This document shows, piece after piece, positions 24,285 through 29,789 of a stretch of DNA of 64,000 nucleotides. This DNA is from Roseivirga ehrenbergii (GTDB lineage: Bacteria; Bacteroidota; Bacteroidia; Cytophagales; Cyclobacteriaceae): assembly GCF_001593005.1 (NCBI RefSeq), contig NZ_LQZQ01000049.1, positions 124,001 through 188,000 of the forward strand, written 5' to 3'. The first letter of the stretch is position 1, and each line of letters starts with the position of its first letter. The notes beneath the pieces are model-generated. The model had not been told where the DNA came from and made no database searches. It saw nothing but the letters and a program-made list of their open reading frames with translations. A program made the translations under genes and the position numbers.

Positions 24285-25574
24285 ATGAAAAGAAGATCCC
24301 TACTTCAAAAACTCGCAATAGGCGCAATTTCACTGCCCTTCATTGGTCGTTCCTTAGACGAATACTTACCTAAAGAGAGTATTGCAGAATGGAAGGGAGA
24401 GTTCGATCTGACCAAAACTCAGGATGAAGCATTTTGGAAAGACTTTAAGAAAACTCACTACGATGTAAGCGACAAGTGGATCAATCTTGAGAACGGTTAT
24501 TTTGGGGTACAGCCAAAAATGGTGGTAGACGCTTATGTAGAGTCCATTAAAAAAGTAAATAGGGAAAGTTCGGCCTATGCGCGAAGAATTTTTAATCAGC
24601 AGGATTTCGGCCCTGTTATGGACACCTTGGCTGAGTTTTCGGGAGCAGAACGTGAAGAATTGCTGATTACCAGAAATGCCACGGAGGCGCTGAATATTCT
24701 GATTCAAGGCATCGATTTTCAACCAGGTGATGAAGTGATTTTTAGCGAACAAGATTACCCAAGCATGATTGAGGCTTTTGAAATGCTTGAAAAAACAAAG
24801 GGTATTATCATCAAGCGTATAGCGCTGCCGATGATTCCAGAGAGTGATGCACAAATTGTAAGCTTATACCAAGCGGCCGTGACTAACAAAACACGTTGTA
24901 TTCTAGTCACTCACCTAATTCATTTAACAGGACAGATTATGCCAGTAAAGGCCATTGCAGATATGGCCAGGCCGAAAGGAGTGGAGGTAATTGTGGATGC
25001 TGCACACAGTTTTGCGCATCTAGATTTCAAAATTCCAGATTTAGGCTGTGATTTTGTGGGTGTCAACCTGCATAAGTGGTTCAGTGCGCCTATAGGCATG
25101 GGGCTAATGTATGTGAAGAAAAACAGAATCAAAGACCTCAGTCCAATGTTTGGTGATGTAGGCCAGCGCGAAGATAATATTAACAAATTGGGCCACTTCG
25201 GAACGCTATCATTCCCTACTTTACTTACGGTGCCCAAGGCCGCAGAATTTAATAATATGGTGACCATCCCCGTGAAAGAAGCACGACTTCGGTATTTGCA
25301 AAACTACTGGACAAAAGAAATAGGAGGGATTGCTAATGCGGAGTTGCTTACGCCTATCGAAGCAAAAAGAAGCTGTGCCATCGCTACCTTCAAACTACGT
25401 AACCTAGATGCCGATGAAGTAATCAAAAGGTTGTATGATGACTTTGGCGTATTTACCGTAAAAAGGAATCTACCAGAGAATGAAGAAGGCATCCGCGTAA
25501 CCCCAAATCTATATAGCTCAACTTCCGATGTAGACCGATTACTAGAGGGTATTCAGAAGTTAAGTAAAATGTAA
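24285..25574 (+). CDS. Class V aminotransferase-fold PLP enzyme with Tat-like signal
   Basis: 429 residues. The N-terminus K-R-R-S-L-L-Q-K-L-A-I-G-A-I-S-L-P resembles a twin-arginine signal, suggesting export of the folded holoenzyme. The class V fold is shown by R-N-A-T-E-A-L-N (phosphate site), V-I-V-D-A-A-H-S-F (cofactor-binding Asp) and N-L-H-K-W with the Schiff-base lysine at about 264. Similar proteins are named isopenicillin-N epimerase or cysteine-desulfurase-like, but the reaction cannot be assigned. It is followed by about 600 bases of repeats and the phhA leader, so it is a separate transcription unit. Confidence 0.87.
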   Translation: MKRRSLLQKLAIGAISLPFIGRSLDEYLPKESIAEWKGEFDLTKTQDEAFWKDFKKTHYDVSDKWINLENGYFGVQPKMVVDAYVESIKKVNRESSAYARRIFNQQDFGPVMDTLAEFSGAEREELLITRNATEALNILIQGIDFQPGDEVIFSEQDYPSMIEAFEMLEKTKGIIIKRIALPMIPESDAQIVSLYQAAVTNKTRCILVTHLIHLTGQIMPVKAIADMARPKGVEVIVDAAHSFAHLDFKIPDLGCDFVGVNLHKWFSAPIGMGLMYVKKNRIKDLSPMFGDVGQREDNINKLGHFGTLSFPTLLTVPKAAEFNNMVTIPVKEARLRYLQNYWTKEIGGIANAELLTPIEAKRSCAIATFKLRNLDADEVIKRLYDDFGVFTVKRNLPENEEGIRVTPNLYSSTSDVDRLLEGIQKLSKM

Positions 25575-25641
25575 GAAACAGGTAGGGCATCTTTAACCGC
25601 GAAGGACACTAAGTAACGCAGAATGTATACTATACCTCAAT

Positions 25642-25705
25642 CGCTCGGTTGTACCGAGTGATGGTTAGCTTTTTAATTTAAGTAGTCACTCGGCAAAGCC
25701 AAGCG
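25642..25705. repeat. Dispersed hairpin repeat, copy 2
   Basis: Arms at 25642-25661 (CGCTCGGTTGTACCGAGTGA) and 25686-25705 (TCACTCGGCAAAGCCAAGCG). The 3' arm is identical to copy 1 at 18421-18440. Confidence 0.7.
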
Positions 25706-25733
25706 ATTGTAGAGCACCAATAGTCCACTTGAA

Positions 25734-25810
25734 GTCATCCTGTAAGGATCTTTTTCAGAAACACAGAAAAGTTTGACTTGTGAGGCGTGAAAGGATTCCT
25801 ACGGAATGAC
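25734..25810. repeat. Imperfect inverted repeat element
   Basis: GTCATCCTGTAAGGATCTTTT (25734-25754) is the near complement of the segment ending GGAATGAC at 25810 (AAAGGATTCCTACGGAATGAC). It is a short palindromic intergenic element, similar in size to the one at 11643-11766 but of different sequence. Confidence 0.55.
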
Positions 25811-25833
25811 TTGCAAGATGGATTTACAGCATT

Positions 25834-25914
25834 AACGGACAGAGTCCTTTGGTTCATAGAGCGTCACAGGTTATGCCAAAGGGCAGATGAAACGGAGAAC
25901 ATGCAAAAGGTAGC
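25834..25914 (+). repeat. Degenerate repeat shared with 21679-21764
   Basis: ACGGACAGAGTCCTT, CACAGGTT, GGCAGAT, CGGAGAAC and a terminal GTAGC occur in the same order as at 21679-21764. Confidence 0.5.
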
Positions 25915-25984
25915 TTTTATTAGACTTTAAACAATAAACCCTAAACAGGTTTTCACTCCACTCAATTCTTTTTTAAAAAAAGGA

Positions 25985-26014
25985 TTGCCAATTCGGAAAT
26001 GCATTTTACCTTTG
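25985..26014 (+). promoter_or_regulatory. Consensus Bacteroidota promoter of the phhA leader
   Basis: TTG at 25985-25987, a spacer of exactly 19 bases, then TACCTTTG at 26007-26014. This matches TTG-N19-TAnnTTTG perfectly. Transcription should start at about 26018-26021, at or within a few bases of the ATG of the leader ORF (26020), so the leader peptide message is close to leaderless. Confidence 0.75.
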
Positions 26015-26019
26015 GGGCA

Positions 26020-26088
26020 ATGTTACATAGCAGCGCACATCATTATTACTATTACTACCCGAACGATCGGAACGGCAGCGCTATGTAA
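26020..26088 (+). CDS. Leader peptide of phhA, His/Tyr-rich (22 codons)
   Basis: ATG at 26020, stop TAA at 26086-26088. The peptide begins M-L-H-S-S-A, then H-H (26038-26043) and Y-Y-Y-Y-Y (26044-26058), then P-N-D-R-N-G-S-A-M. Five adjacent Tyr codons (TAT/TAC) after two His codons, a consensus promoter directly in front and an intrinsic terminator 32 bases after the stop are the hallmarks of a ribosome-mediated attenuator. Codons 2-4 (26023-26031) pair with the last codons (26080-26088) in a perfect 9-bp stem, placing the Tyr run in the loop. The next gene makes tyrosine from phenylalanine, so low charged tRNA-Tyr should stall ribosomes and favour read-through. Translation of the peptide is inferred. 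Confidence 0.7.
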   Translation: MLHSSAHHYYYYYPNDRNGSAM

Positions 26089-26143
26089 ATTGTATAGAAA
26101 CAATTAATCAAACATATAAGACCCGATTCCGCAAGAATCGGGT
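26023..26143 (+). promoter_or_regulatory. Candidate tyrosine-sensing transcription attenuator of phhA
   Basis: Competing structures are visible. One is the 9-bp stem TTACATAGC (26023-26031) with GCTATGTAA (26080-26088). A small hairpin forms from AATTGT (26088-26093) and ACAATT (26100-26105). GATCGG (26065-26070) could pair with CCGATT (26123-26128, one G-U), which is the 5' arm of the terminator. The last pairing would act as antiterminator. The full switching order is a model, not shown. Confidence 0.6.
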
Positions 26144-26155
26144 TTTTTGTTTTTT
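26121..26155 (+). terminator. Attenuator terminator upstream of phhA
   Basis: ACCCGATTC (26121-26129) and GAATCGGGT (26135-26143) form a perfect 9-bp stem with a CGCAA loop, followed by TTTTTTGTTTTTT. It ends 34 bases before the phhA start, so it must be bypassed for phhA to be expressed from the promoter at 25985. Confidence 0.85.
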
Positions 26156-26189
26156 AGCCCATTCCAGCGGAGTCTTTAACAAGGAAAGA

Positions 26190-26927
26190 ATGAAACAGAT
26201 TTATGAGAATTACACAGCCGAAGACCAGAAAGTATGGGGTATCCTCTTCGACCGACAGTTTCCTAGTTTGCCTAAAGCCGCAACTACCGAATTTACCAAG
26301 GGTTTAAAGTTGGTGAACTTCACCAATGAAGGAATTCCAAACTTCGAGAAAACCAATGAGATACTTCGTGGTTTAACAGGTTGGGAGATTTACGCAGTGC
26401 CCGGAATTGTGGAAGATGGTCTTTTCTTTGAGCTTATGGCCAATAAGAAATTTCCTGCTACTACCTGGGTGCGAAAAATGAGTCAGTTGGATTATTTGGA
26501 AGAGCCTGATATGTTTCACGATGTATTTGCTCACATTCCATTGCTCACCAATCAGGCTTTTGTAGACTTCCTTCAGGCCATCAGTCAGTTTGGTCACGAA
26601 TGGATTGAAGACGAATGGGCAATTCATTTATTGTCAAGGATTTACTGGTATACCATTGAGTTTGGTTTGATCAGAGAAGAGGGTGAAGTGAAAATATACG
26701 GAGCAGGAATATTATCGTCTGCGGGCGAAACTAAATACTCGTTGAGCGATGAGCCCAACCACTTTGAGTATGATGTAGATAAAATCTTAGAAACACCTTA
26801 CAGAAAGGATAAAATGCAAGAGAATTACTTTATTATTGAGTCGTATGAGCAATTGTATAATTCTCTGCCAGAGATTAAATCTAAAATTGAAGCGAAATTA
26901 AAACAAAGAAAAGAAGCGGTGGTTTAA
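26190..26927 (+). CDS. phhA: Phenylalanine 4-monooxygenase (phenylalanine hydroxylase)
   Basis: 245 residues, the bacterial single-domain length. It hydroxylates phenylalanine to tyrosine with tetrahydropterin, O2 and non-haem iron. The iron-binding facial triad is visible: H110 and H115 in P-D-M-F-H-D-V-F-A-H-I-P, and E157 in Y-W-Y-T-I-E-F-G-L. Supporting motifs are F-G-H-E-W near 135 and G-A-G-I-L-S-S near 171. AAGGAAAG just upstream of the ATG resembles a Shine-Dalgarno site. Expression is probably controlled by the Tyr-rich leader. A terminator overlaps its stop codon (26914-26938), and hisH starts 22 bases later. Confidence 0.95.
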   Translation: MKQIYENYTAEDQKVWGILFDRQFPSLPKAATTEFTKGLKLVNFTNEGIPNFEKTNEILRGLTGWEIYAVPGIVEDGLFFELMANKKFPATTWVRKMSQLDYLEEPDMFHDVFAHIPLLTNQAFVDFLQAISQFGHEWIEDEWAIHLLSRIYWYTIEFGLIREEGEVKIYGAGILSSAGETKYSLSDEPNHFEYDVDKILETPYRKDKMQENYFIIESYEQLYNSLPEIKSKIEAKLKQRKEAVV

Positions 26928-26938
26928 ACCGCTTTTTT
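26914..26938 (+). terminator. Terminator overlapping the phhA stop codon
   Basis: AAGCGGT (26914-26920) and ACCGCTT (26928-26934) form a 7-bp stem, and the loop contains the phhA TAA; TTTTTT follows. It separates phhA from hisH and would reduce transcription into the his genes unless translation or read-through interferes. Confidence 0.65.
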
Positions 26939-26949
26939 CATTCAAACAT

Positions 26950-27534
26950 ATGAGTGTAGTTATTGTAGATTATAATGCGGGCAATGTGCAGTCTGTTACC
27001 TATGCTTTAGAGCGTTTGGGCGTTTCTCCTGTACTCAGTGCCGATCCGGAAGTGATTCGCTCTGCAGACCGCGTCATTTTTCCAGGCGTGGGCGAAGCCA
27101 GTACTGCCATGCGATTTCTGAAAGAAAGAAAGCTGGATGAAGTGATTAAAGACTTAAAGCAACCTGTTTTTGGTGTTTGCTTAGGTTTGCAACTGATGTG
27201 CGCTCATTCCGAAGAAAACAACACCGATTGCCTTGGCATCTTCGATGTACAGGTAAAGAAGTTTGAGCCTACGCTGAAAGTGCCTCAGATGGGCTGGAAT
27301 AATCTAGAGCATACTACTGGTCCTTTGTTTAAGGGAATAGAAGCTGATAGTTATGTGTATTACGTGCATAGCTATTATGCAGAAACCAGTGAGTATACCA
27401 TTGCTACCACTGATTACGTGAATACGTTTAGTGCAGCTCTGAACAAGGATAACTTCTATGCTTTACAGGCCCACCCCGAAAAAAGTGGAAAAGTAGGAGA
27501 GCGCATCCTTCAGAATTTTCTTGATATCAAGTGA
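26950..27534 (+). CDS. hisH: Imidazole glycerol phosphate synthase, glutaminase subunit
   Basis: 194 residues, class I glutamine amidotransferase. It provides ammonia to HisF for the fifth step of histidine synthesis. The catalytic triad is visible: C77 in G-V-C-L-G-L-Q-L-M, and H175 and E177 in L-Q-A-H-P-E-K-S-G. The N-terminus V-I-V-D-Y-N-A-G-N-V-Q-S-V is characteristic. It is the first of four his genes here; hisG, hisD, hisC and hisB are not adjacent. I find no promoter in the 22-base gap after phhA. Confidence 0.96.
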   Translation: MSVVIVDYNAGNVQSVTYALERLGVSPVLSADPEVIRSADRVIFPGVGEASTAMRFLKERKLDEVIKDLKQPVFGVCLGLQLMCAHSEENNTDCLGIFDVQVKKFEPTLKVPQMGWNNLEHTTGPLFKGIEADSYVYYVHSYYAETSEYTIATTDYVNTFSAALNKDNFYALQAHPEKSGKVGERILQNFLDIK

Positions 27535-27627: not shown

Positions 27628-27661
27628 ATTGACTATTGACTATTGACTATTGACTATTGAC
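27628..27661 (+). repeat. Heptanucleotide tandem repeat between hisH and hisA
   Basis: ATTGACT is repeated four times (27628-27655), with six more matching bases. Length changes by slippage would alter the distance between the hisH stop and the hisA start (27677). Just before it (27541-27590) is a degenerate purine-rich stretch with repeated AGGAAA/CAGGGAA words. Confidence 0.85.
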
Positions 27662-27676
27662 CCAATACCAGAAACA

Positions 27677-28393
27677 ATGCACATCATACCAGCCATAGAT
27701 ATTATAGATGGAAAATGCGTTCGGCTCACGCAGGGCGATTACGCTCAAAAGACCGAATACGCTTCCGATCCGCTTATTGTAGCTCAAAAATTTGAAGCCG
27801 CAGGAATCAAACGACTTCACGTAGTCGATTTAGATGGCGCTAAAGCTAGCAAGATCGTAAATGAGCCTACACTCAAGAGAATCGCTTCAAATACCAGTTT
27901 GCATGTAGATTTTGGCGGTGGTGTAAAGTCGGATGAAGCGATTGATACGGCTTTTGCAGCTGGCGCAGCACAGATTACAGCAGGAAGTATTGCAGTGAAA
28001 GACAAAGCTTTGGTACTGAGTTGGCTTAAGAAATATGGTCCGGATAAAATTATTCTCGGTGCCGATGTGCATCACAATGAAGTGCGTATTAACGGTTGGC
28101 AAGAAGGTTCGGGAATGAATATTTTCAACTTTCTGGAAGACTATGTGAGCGCAGGAATAGAATACGTGATATGTACCGATGTAAGCAAAGATGGCCTGTT
28201 ACAAGGCCCTTCATTTGATTTATATGATGATATTCTGAAGCGCTACCCAAAGCTAAAGCTGATTGCGAGCGGAGGAGTGGCTGAACTGGATGACCTAAAG
28301 AAATTAGAGCAAGCTGGCATGTTCGGAACCATTGTAGGAAAGGCCTATTATGAAGGAAGAATTAGCCTAGAGGAACTGGCCTCTTTTGAATAA
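27677..28393 (+). CDS. hisA: ProFAR isomerase (phosphoribosylformimino-AICAR ribotide isomerase)
   Basis: 238 residues from the ATG at 27677 (M-H-I-I-P-A-I-D-I-I-D-G-K-C-V-R-L), the canonical HisA start; an in-frame upstream start would begin inside the tandem repeat. It is a TIM barrel catalysing an Amadori rearrangement. Catalytic Asp 8 lies in A-I-D-I, and the second Asp in C-T-D-V-S-K-D-G. Phosphate-binding motifs are G-G-G-V-K and A-S-G-G-V. It sits between hisH and hisF. The 142-base gap from hisH is unusually long for this operon and holds the tandem repeat. Confidence 0.96.
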   Translation: MHIIPAIDIIDGKCVRLTQGDYAQKTEYASDPLIVAQKFEAAGIKRLHVVDLDGAKASKIVNEPTLKRIASNTSLHVDFGGGVKSDEAIDTAFAAGAAQITAGSIAVKDKALVLSWLKKYGPDKIILGADVHHNEVRINGWQEGSGMNIFNFLEDYVSAGIEYVICTDVSKDGLLQGPSFDLYDDILKRYPKLKLIASGGVAELDDLKKLEQAGMFGTIVGKAYYEGRISLEELASFE

Positions 28394-28416: not shown

Positions 28417-29178
28417 GTGTTAACAAAACGAATAATACCCTGTCTCGACATTAAAAATGGGCGCACCGTAAAGGGAGTCAACTTTGTTGACTTACGTGAT
28501 GCAGGCGACCCCGTAGAGCTTGCCGCTATATACGCTGCAGAAGGAGCCGATGAATTGGTGTTTCTGGATATTACCGCTACGGTGGAAAAGCGAAAGACGC
28601 TGATAGAATTGGTGAAGCGTGTGGCGGCCGAAATCAATATACCGTTTACTGTAGGTGGAGGTATTTCTTCCATTGCAGATGTATCGGCTTTGTTGAATGC
28701 AGGGGCAGATAAGATTTCGATCAACTCTTCTGCCGTGATGCGTCCTGAATTGGTTAGTGAACTGGCCGGTGAATTCGGAAGTCAGTGCGTGGTGGTCGCT
28801 ATCGACTCTCGCTTTGTAGAGGGCGAACACATCGTGCATGTAAGTGGAGGGCGTATTGCTACCGAAAGAAGAACTTTACTTTGGGCGAAGGAAGTAGAGG
28901 AGCGAGGGGCGGGTGAAATACTCCTCACTTCTATGGATCATGACGGAACCAAAGCTGGCTTCGCGAATGAACTTACGGCTAAAGTTTCGGGCTCAGTGTC
29001 CATTCCTGTCATTGCTTCAGGAGGTGCGGGCAACCAAGAACACTTCCTCGATAGCTTCACAATCGGCCTTGCCGATGCTGCTTTGGCAGCCAGTATTTTT
29101 CACTTCAAAGAGGTGTCAATTCCAGATTTAAAAAATTATTTAAAGGGCTATAATATCCCGGTAAGAATAGAAAAATGA
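28417..29178 (+). CDS. hisF: Imidazole glycerol phosphate synthase, cyclase subunit
   Basis: 253 residues. It begins at a GTG (28417; [12 protein letters not shown]), the expected HisF N-terminus, with the catalytic Asp in C-L-D-I-K-N-G-R. The second catalytic Asp lies in [13 protein letters not shown]-barrel phosphate motifs are visible: V-G-G-G-I and A-S-G-G-A-G. It works with HisH to make imidazole glycerol phosphate and AICAR. The start of hisIE overlaps its stop by four bases (ATGA), indicating translational coupling. Confidence 0.96.
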
Positions 29179-29789
29179 GAGTACTAAAAAACATAAACGA
29201 AGTAGACTTTTCAAAAGGGGATGGACTGGTTCCCGTTATCATTCAAGACCAAGTTTCTAACAAGGTATTGATGCTCGGTTACATGAATGCTGAAGCCTTG
29301 GAGAAAACGCTGTCAGAAGGTAAAGTGACTTTCTTTAGTCGTTCTAAAAACAGATTGTGGACAAAAGGTGAGACTTCAAATAATTATATTAATGCGGAAG
29401 AGGTTTTGATCGATTGTGATAGCGATACCTTATTAATCAAGGCAAAACCAGAAGGCCCAACATGTCATAAAGGAGATGATACATGTTTCGAAGAAAGTAA
29501 CGAAATTGGAGTTGAGTTCTTAGATCAGTTAACGCAAGTGATTAAAGAGCGAAGAACAAAAACGCCAGAAGAATCGTATGTATCTCATCTGTTTTCGAAG
29601 GGCATGAATAAGATTGCGCAGAAGGTAGGAGAGGAAGCAGTAGAGTTGGTAATTGAAGCAAAAGATAACGATGAATCACTGTTTTTAAATGAAGGTGCGG
29701 ACTTGTTATTCCATTATATGGTGCTCTTGGAAGCCAAAGGTTACGCTTTAAAAGATGTAATCTCAATTCTTAAAGAAAGACATAAGTAG
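29175..29789 (+). CDS. hisIE: Bifunctional phosphoribosyl-AMP cyclohydrolase / phosphoribosyl-ATP pyrophosphohydrolase
   Basis: 204 residues. The N-terminal HisI domain (1-110) has the zinc and substrate motifs [31 protein letters not shown] and C-H-K-G-D-D-T-C. The C-terminal HisE domain (about 112-204) is an MazG-like helical bundle with [12 protein letters not shown]. It performs steps two and three of histidine synthesis. It is the last gene of the his cluster and overlaps hisF by four bases. Confidence 0.95.

Follow-up and report, generated by a model that had tools for sequence, protein, structure and literature searches.

Ribosome-mediated attenuation is textbook regulation, and the thr and ilv leaders are known to sense more than one amino acid. 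A 2004 survey of Proteobacteria by Vitreschak and others reportedly covered branched-chain, His, Thr, Trp and Phe operons and some Bacteroidetes cases, with no tyrosine among them. Excerpts of PMC1183508 give trp, his, pheA, thr, leu and ilv as the classical attenuator operons of Proteobacteria. For the Bacteroidota, passages of PMC9723704 report clues that leader peptides attenuate amino-acid operons in Flavobacterium psychrophilum (pheA, hisG and others) and a conserved element before hisG; a claim that attenuators of this kind are in general unknown in the phylum does not hold. Also described, in the sections consulted, are the Bacteroid-trp RNA (RF01692; PMC2864571), leader-peptide-like small ORFs in Bacteroides (PMC7366714), and predicted attenuators before tyrA in several bacteria, for which codon detail is not given (PMC1173090).

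We analyzed a 64-kb stretch of the Roseivirga ehrenbergii genome (the window; 64,000 nucleotides), in which a short ORF with two His and five Tyr codons precedes an operon of the order phhA-hisH-hisA-hisF-hisIE (Table 1). We propose that this leader controls transcription by classical ribosome-mediated attenuation and takes two inputs, Tyr and His; we put the probability of this reading at about 0.87. The tyrosine and histidine genes of this marine bacterium thus appear, from sequence comparison, to be switched on by ribosome stalling in a tiny upstream ORF. The parts, their conservation, the match between codons and operon content and the geometry come from the sequence and its comparison with relatives, and from these we infer translation, stalling, kinetics and response.

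The leader region of phhA-hisHAFIE

Table 1. Features of the phhA leader and operon (positions in the window)
Feature	Position	Strand	Evidence
Bacteroidota-type promoter: TTG (25985-25987), 19 nt, TACCTTTG -7 box (26007-26014)	25985-26014	+	Sequence
Predicted +1, 1 nt 5' of the leader ATG; transcript leaderless or almost so	26019	+	Inferred from box position
Leader peptide ORF MLHSSAHHYYYYYPNDRNGSAM, 22 codons and stop	26020-26088	+	Sequence; Tyr/His-rich leader ORFs in 76/193 phhA loci
Region 1 arm of the 1:2 (anti-antiterminator) stem, TTACATAGC	26023-26031	+	Pairs with 26080-26088
Two His control codons	26038-26043	+	At least two His kept where hisH/hisA lie downstream
Five Tyr control codons	26044-26058	+	Tyr runs conserved with TAT/TAC exchange
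Antiterminator 5' strand, CGGAACGG	26068-26075	+	Predicted, with the run under a ribosome, to pair with 26123-26125 and 26127-26131
Region 2 arm of the 1:2 stem, GCTATGTAA, includes the stop codon	26080-26088	+	9 perfect pairs with 26023-26031
Intrinsic terminator, ACCCGATTC (26121-26129) and GAATCGGGT (26135-26143), loop CGCAA, T-rich tract	26121-26156	+	Sequence, terminator scoring
Antiterminator 3' strand, overlaps the terminator 5' arm	26123-26131	+	Folding; counterpart helix in 18 Algoriphagus/Echinicola-type leaders
phhA, phenylalanine 4-monooxygenase	26190-26927	+	NF008877, 270 bits (cut-off 247); PF00351
Weak hairpin resembling a terminator, spanning the phhA stop codon, 5' of hisH	26914-26938	+	6 pairs (26918-26933), then T-rich
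hisH	26950-27534	+	TIGR01855, 213 bits
hisA (an inner ATG may be the true start)	27650-28393	+	TIGR00007, 253 bits
hisF	28417-29178	+	TIGR00735, 355 bits
hisIE	29175-29789	+	NF002747, 279 bits

The promoter, the 22-codon ORF with two His and then five consecutive Tyr codons, the 9-bp stem of perfect pairs around the Tyr run and the strong 9-bp terminator with its T tract had all been proposed from the sequence, and each lies where it was placed, exact to the base. The gene that follows is phhA, as had been said, by a model score above the cut-off. The original reading was a tyrosine attenuator. Its core, stalling at Tyr codons ahead of an enzyme that makes tyrosine, is well backed by relatives; the reading overlooked the his genes, the very probable sensing of His and the antiterminator. 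The leader peptide reads M L H S S A H H Y Y Y Y Y P N D R N G S A M, in which codon 3 is an extra His. PhhA of the window and of Roseivirga seohaensis (locus L031; among the best 80 of at least 589 matches) are 100% identical, and the two leader peptides are also the same. The his genes begin 23 nt past phhA; since phhA heads an operon with hisHAFIE, the His-His-Tyr5 run would be able to sense both products. The weak hairpin at the end of phhA might keep phhA expression above that of his. The upstream gene (24285-25574), codirectional with phhA, has a class V aminotransferase fold with a weak likeness to PvdN and cysteine desulfurases, and its product has, in our reading of the sequence, a putative twin-arginine-like N-terminus.

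PhhA is probably the source of tyrosine in this genome, because PF02153, searched as the TyrA family (prephenate/arogenate dehydrogenase), has no match there (G000) or in one further Roseivirga genome (G057); 70 of the 78 genomes of the family do have one. Mutant fitness data from Echinicola vietnamensis, of the same family, back a biosynthetic, tyrosine-making PhhA in the sections consulted of PMC7311316.

The predicted TTG-N19-TACCTTTG promoter stands directly before the ORF, and the same arrangement recurs in the leaders of relatives. Of 60 leaders, 27 have a perfect TAnnTTTG box 3-9 nt 5' of an in-frame leader ATG, where shuffles predict 0.44, and so do 33 of 76 in a larger leader set; with up to one mismatch and a distance of 4-9 nt, the count is 48 of 60. 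In F. psychrophilum the -7 box was mapped at -12 to -5, and 5.5% of mRNAs are leaderless (passages of PMC9723704). Taking the box of the window at the same distance, the AUG is predicted at +2.

Leader codons and the genes that follow

Our family sample comprised 110 loci taken from 130 genomes with a match, and the order sample added 40 new loci from among the matches listed (265 order genomes with a match). From 230 loci in total, 36 near-identical ones and one with a short upstream region were dropped, leaving 193. Under a strict rule, which asks for at least five Tyr/His among 10 codons and for a terminator after the ORF, leaders lie in 47 of 92 gaps before phhA and in 0 of 467 control gaps, taken from in front of the other genes at these loci. 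A looser rule (at least four Tyr/His of eight codons and a terminator) found them in 76 of the 193 distinct phhA loci and in 1 of the 467 control gaps. The looser rule detected no leader at 43 of the 91 loci that have his genes and at 62 of the 90 that lack them. In a degradative setting, with HPPD, FAH or HmgA near phhA, none of 12 loci had a leader.

The relatives that have a leader show what the original prediction had asked for, namely short ORFs with conserved Tyr codons, drifting flanks and a terminator. In Roseivirga, changes within the run are Tyr/His exchanges or silent, and the flanks drift. Over the 76 leaders, the mean number of Tyr/His among the eight control codons is 5.79 in the ORF frame versus 0.42 and 0.30 in the other frames, and TAT, TAC, CAT and CAC are all used. 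The Tyr runs are conserved, with exchange between TAT and TAC. The Tyr run by itself is not unusual in the genome, where four Tyr codons in a row (TAYTAYTAYTAY, TAYx4) occur at 20 sites on both strands (54 for a control pattern); the setting is unusual. The Algoriphagus leaders keep an M(N/S)PTPRT N-terminus before Y/F-V/I-HHS, conserved beyond what control codons need (L044, L045, L049, L051, L056-L060, L064, L068, L070, L077 and L127). In another locus (L007, genome G036), which has a YYYYYYY leader, the phhA match contains one in-frame TAA inside the matched range.

We sorted the leaders by whether hisH or hisA lies within 900 nt of phhA (tblastn). At least two His codons occur in the eight-codon control window in 45 of 48 leaders with his genes (mean 2.5 His; the exceptions, L009, L016 and L198, have a single His codon) and in 0 of 28 leaders without them (mean 0.29), which are mostly pure Tyr. 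This match is not built in, because detection made no distinction between Tyr and His. Fisher's test gives p = 9e-18 with kinship ignored, and the Mann-Whitney test ignores kinship too. On the PhhA tree there are four supported independent contrasts (seven if all branches are counted), of which 3.6 on average go in the same direction and 0 in the opposite one; p is 0.125, four being too few for significance in a sign test. The contrast is clearest within Marivirga, where two leaders followed by his genes (L020 and L022) have CAT-(Tyr)4-5-CAT, with His on both sides of the Tyr run, and three without his genes (L010, L015 and L024) have ACA-(Tyr)5-CAG/CAA/CTA, that is, Thr and Gln or Leu. Three loci have an NYYYYYYY leader, and there an aminotransferase gene and tyrA follow. 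In L042, a Tyr-run leader precedes an aminotransferase gene that is itself upstream of tyrA and phhA.

Leaders for single amino acids occur in the same family. At hisG, 23 of 31 loci have at least four His in eight codons when a terminator is not demanded, and 11 have one with a terminator; the 23 His-rich windows hold 3 Tyr codons in all. Nine distinct leader peptides with a WWW run and a terminator were found before trpE (L073, L084, L076, L074, L072, L069, L067, L066 and L036). In the genome of the window, but outside the window itself, hisG has a near-leaderless leader, MLKNIHIASTYAPHVHHFHHLS, behind TACCTTTG (L141, G000:C45, about 142514-142600). This leader has no T-tract terminator, and its relatives (for example, L158, L161, L164 and L167) have VHHxHHSS or similar just before the stop; it may represent another type of His leader. 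In L029 and L030, an ORF ending HHHHHCH-stop lies in a 244-nt gap between phhA and hisH; these loci lack both a Tyr leader in front of phhA and a clear terminator.

Because His codons are kept only where his genes follow, the leader of the window very probably senses histidine as well as tyrosine. The simpler reading, that it senses tyrosine only, with incidental His codons and with his genes merely carried along, draws on the excess of Tyr over His codons in the window (5 versus 2), on the 28 of 28 leaders without his genes that are Tyr-only by the two-His rule, and on the expectation that a stall at any codon of the run should act alike. We consider it improbable in view of the difference in His codons between loci with and without his genes (four supported independent contrasts), the flanking codons in Marivirga and the His-rich leaders before hisG in the same clade.

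Still less probable is an arrest like that of TnaC, in which the YYYYY nascent peptide or free tyrosine, and not uncharged tRNA, would halt the ribosome. Homopolymer runs can slow ribosomes, and a stall of any cause would lead to the same RNA switch, but the peptides outside the run differ between genera, the run mixes Tyr, His and spacers (AYYHSYYH, TYVHHSYH), and the same layout exists with His and with Trp. That the ORF is fortuitous and the leader a riboswitch, a T-box, a protein-bound leader or a plain terminator is hardly credible even with a strong terminator before the gene, given that no Rfam family reaches its gathering score in the 64-kb window, that Tyr/His is confined to the ORF frame and that the codons track gene content. 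The Rfam leaders among them (His, Thr, Trp, Phe, Leu and Bacteroid-trp) gave 0 matches at the gathering cut-off in the window, the best being a weak Thr_leader at 27.7 versus 55 bits, and the T-box model gave none at gathering in the window and none at E<=5 in 25900-26250.

Alternative structures of the leader RNA

We take the two-input attenuator as the working model for the RNA. Its terminator was scored as 12 pairs (26118-26146), and 25600-27000 holds five terminator-like sites on both strands versus 1.0 in shuffles. An equilibrium fold of the full leader gave the terminator in every ribosome state and is uninformative on the switch, so the model rests on kinetics, and the RNA was folded up to 26137, with the terminator 3' arm absent and ribosome footprints assumed. 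In these folds the 1:2 stem forms when no ribosome is present (-17.9 kcal/mol). With a ribosome on His1, Tyr1 or Tyr3, the antiterminator (26068-26075/26123-26131) forms instead, at -12.7 kcal/mol; at Tyr5 just three antiterminator pairs are left, and with the ribosome on the stop codon there is no antiterminator.

Against shuffles, the 2:3 pairing, which joins region 2 to the 5' arm of the terminator, has a mean z of -2.08 over 60 leaders, with p<0.05 in 34 of the 60; in the window alone it is no better than shuffles (z -0.7, p 0.205). The 1:2 pairing has a mean z of -1.45, with p<0.05 in 26 of 60 and, in the window, z -2.0 and p 0.030; by the same test it is absent from most Algoriphagus-type leaders. 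Because region 2 was misaligned in the whole-leader alignment of Algoriphagus, its segments were anchored anew on GGNNTNGG, and 18 of 19 anchored rows were used (L118, about the same as L050, was omitted; L053, L055 and L069 lie outside the alignment). In these 18 Algoriphagus/Echinicola-type leaders, all 144 of 144 cells of an 8-bp 2:3 helix are paired, with rows anchored on the region 2 pattern. Its covariation score is 0.201 versus 0.137, and 0 of 500 shuffles reach 0.201, a result that leans toward a helix because of that anchoring on GGNNTNGG; one pair only has changes on both sides, which 154 of 500 shuffles match. The 3:4 helix in the same leaders gave a similar outcome.

In 54 of 60 leaders, region 2 starts 10-19 nt past the first base of the last control codon, versus 17.5 expected and a maximum of 26 among 100 null sets. 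This is about the distance from the A-site to the ribosome edge, and a ribosome stalled on the control codons would extend roughly that far. One that had arrived at the stop codon would be able to touch region 2 in 44 of the 60 leaders, not in all.

Proposed mechanism and comparison with known systems

In the mechanism that we propose, the RNA would begin about 1 nt 5' of the leader AUG, and a ribosome would start on MLHSSAHHYYYYYPNDRNGSAM. When charged tRNA-Tyr and tRNA-His are both ample, it would reach the UAA at 26086-26088 and cover region 2 (26071 onward), so that the antiterminator is blocked and RNA polymerase stops at 26121-26156. When either charged tRNA is short, the ribosome would halt on His-His-Tyr5 (at a His codon or, at the least, at one of Tyr1 to Tyr3) and keep the 1:2 stem open; 26068-26075 could then pair with 26123-26131, the terminator would come too late, and phhA-hisHAFIE would be transcribed. 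Should the leader not be translated, the 1:2 stem would form, making termination the default. The Tyr codons would match PhhA, and the His codons HisHAFIE.

More broadly, we lean toward the view that in the Cytophagales a single family of near-leaderless leader peptides serves trpE (Trp), phhA or aat-tyrA (Tyr), hisG (His) and phhA-his (Tyr with His), and that selection rewrites its codon mix as genes join or leave. The leader of the window would then be an OR sensor for Tyr or His shortage, and Tyr attenuation would stand where T-boxes or TyrR stand elsewhere. Should the attenuator proposed for the window hold, it would supply a regulator of phenylalanine hydroxylase-based tyrosine synthesis in Bacteroidota and a leader that marks biosynthetic phhA copies versus degradative ones (0/12 with a leader). 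It would also provide a natural series for how sensor specificity follows operon rearrangement, in which codons predict the amino acid sensed, and a case for transcription-translation coupling from a 5'-terminal AUG. The ribosomes of this phylum do not use Shine-Dalgarno sequences, according to PMC9976891.

Like the attenuators of Proteobacteria, the proposed system has a short ORF with cognate control codons, a predicted 2:3 antiterminator and a 3:4 terminator, with a predicted 1:2 stem that is clear in the window and in 26 of 60 leaders overall; like thr and ilv, it would respond to more than one amino acid. Unlike them, it would sense Tyr and a Tyr/His pair, from a Bacteroidota promoter and with the AUG at the predicted 5' end; the proteobacterial leader families have no sequence relation to the window at the Rfam cut-off. 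The elements of F. psychrophilum and RF01692 share with it the phylum and the position before amino-acid operons, but RF01692 has no match to the window at gathering score, and the consulted parts of PMC9723704 and PMC2864571 mention neither tyrosine, phhA nor a two-amino-acid leader. In a search of open-licence papers, we found no ribosome attenuator that senses tyrosine or precedes phhA, and no leader that pairs Tyr with His. The trpL RNA of Sinorhizobium meliloti begins with the leader AUG, as is predicted here, but it concerns Trp in another phylum and its 5' end was measured (excerpts of PMC7298713). The tyrosine T-boxes of Firmicutes also sense tRNA-Tyr charging before tyrosine genes (PMC1262725, in the sections consulted); they differ in that the RNA binds the tRNA directly, without translation, and the window has no T-box match. 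Thus, the kind of mechanism is already known, and what would be new here is tyrosine as an input, the pairing of Tyr with His and a codon mix that tracks operon content.
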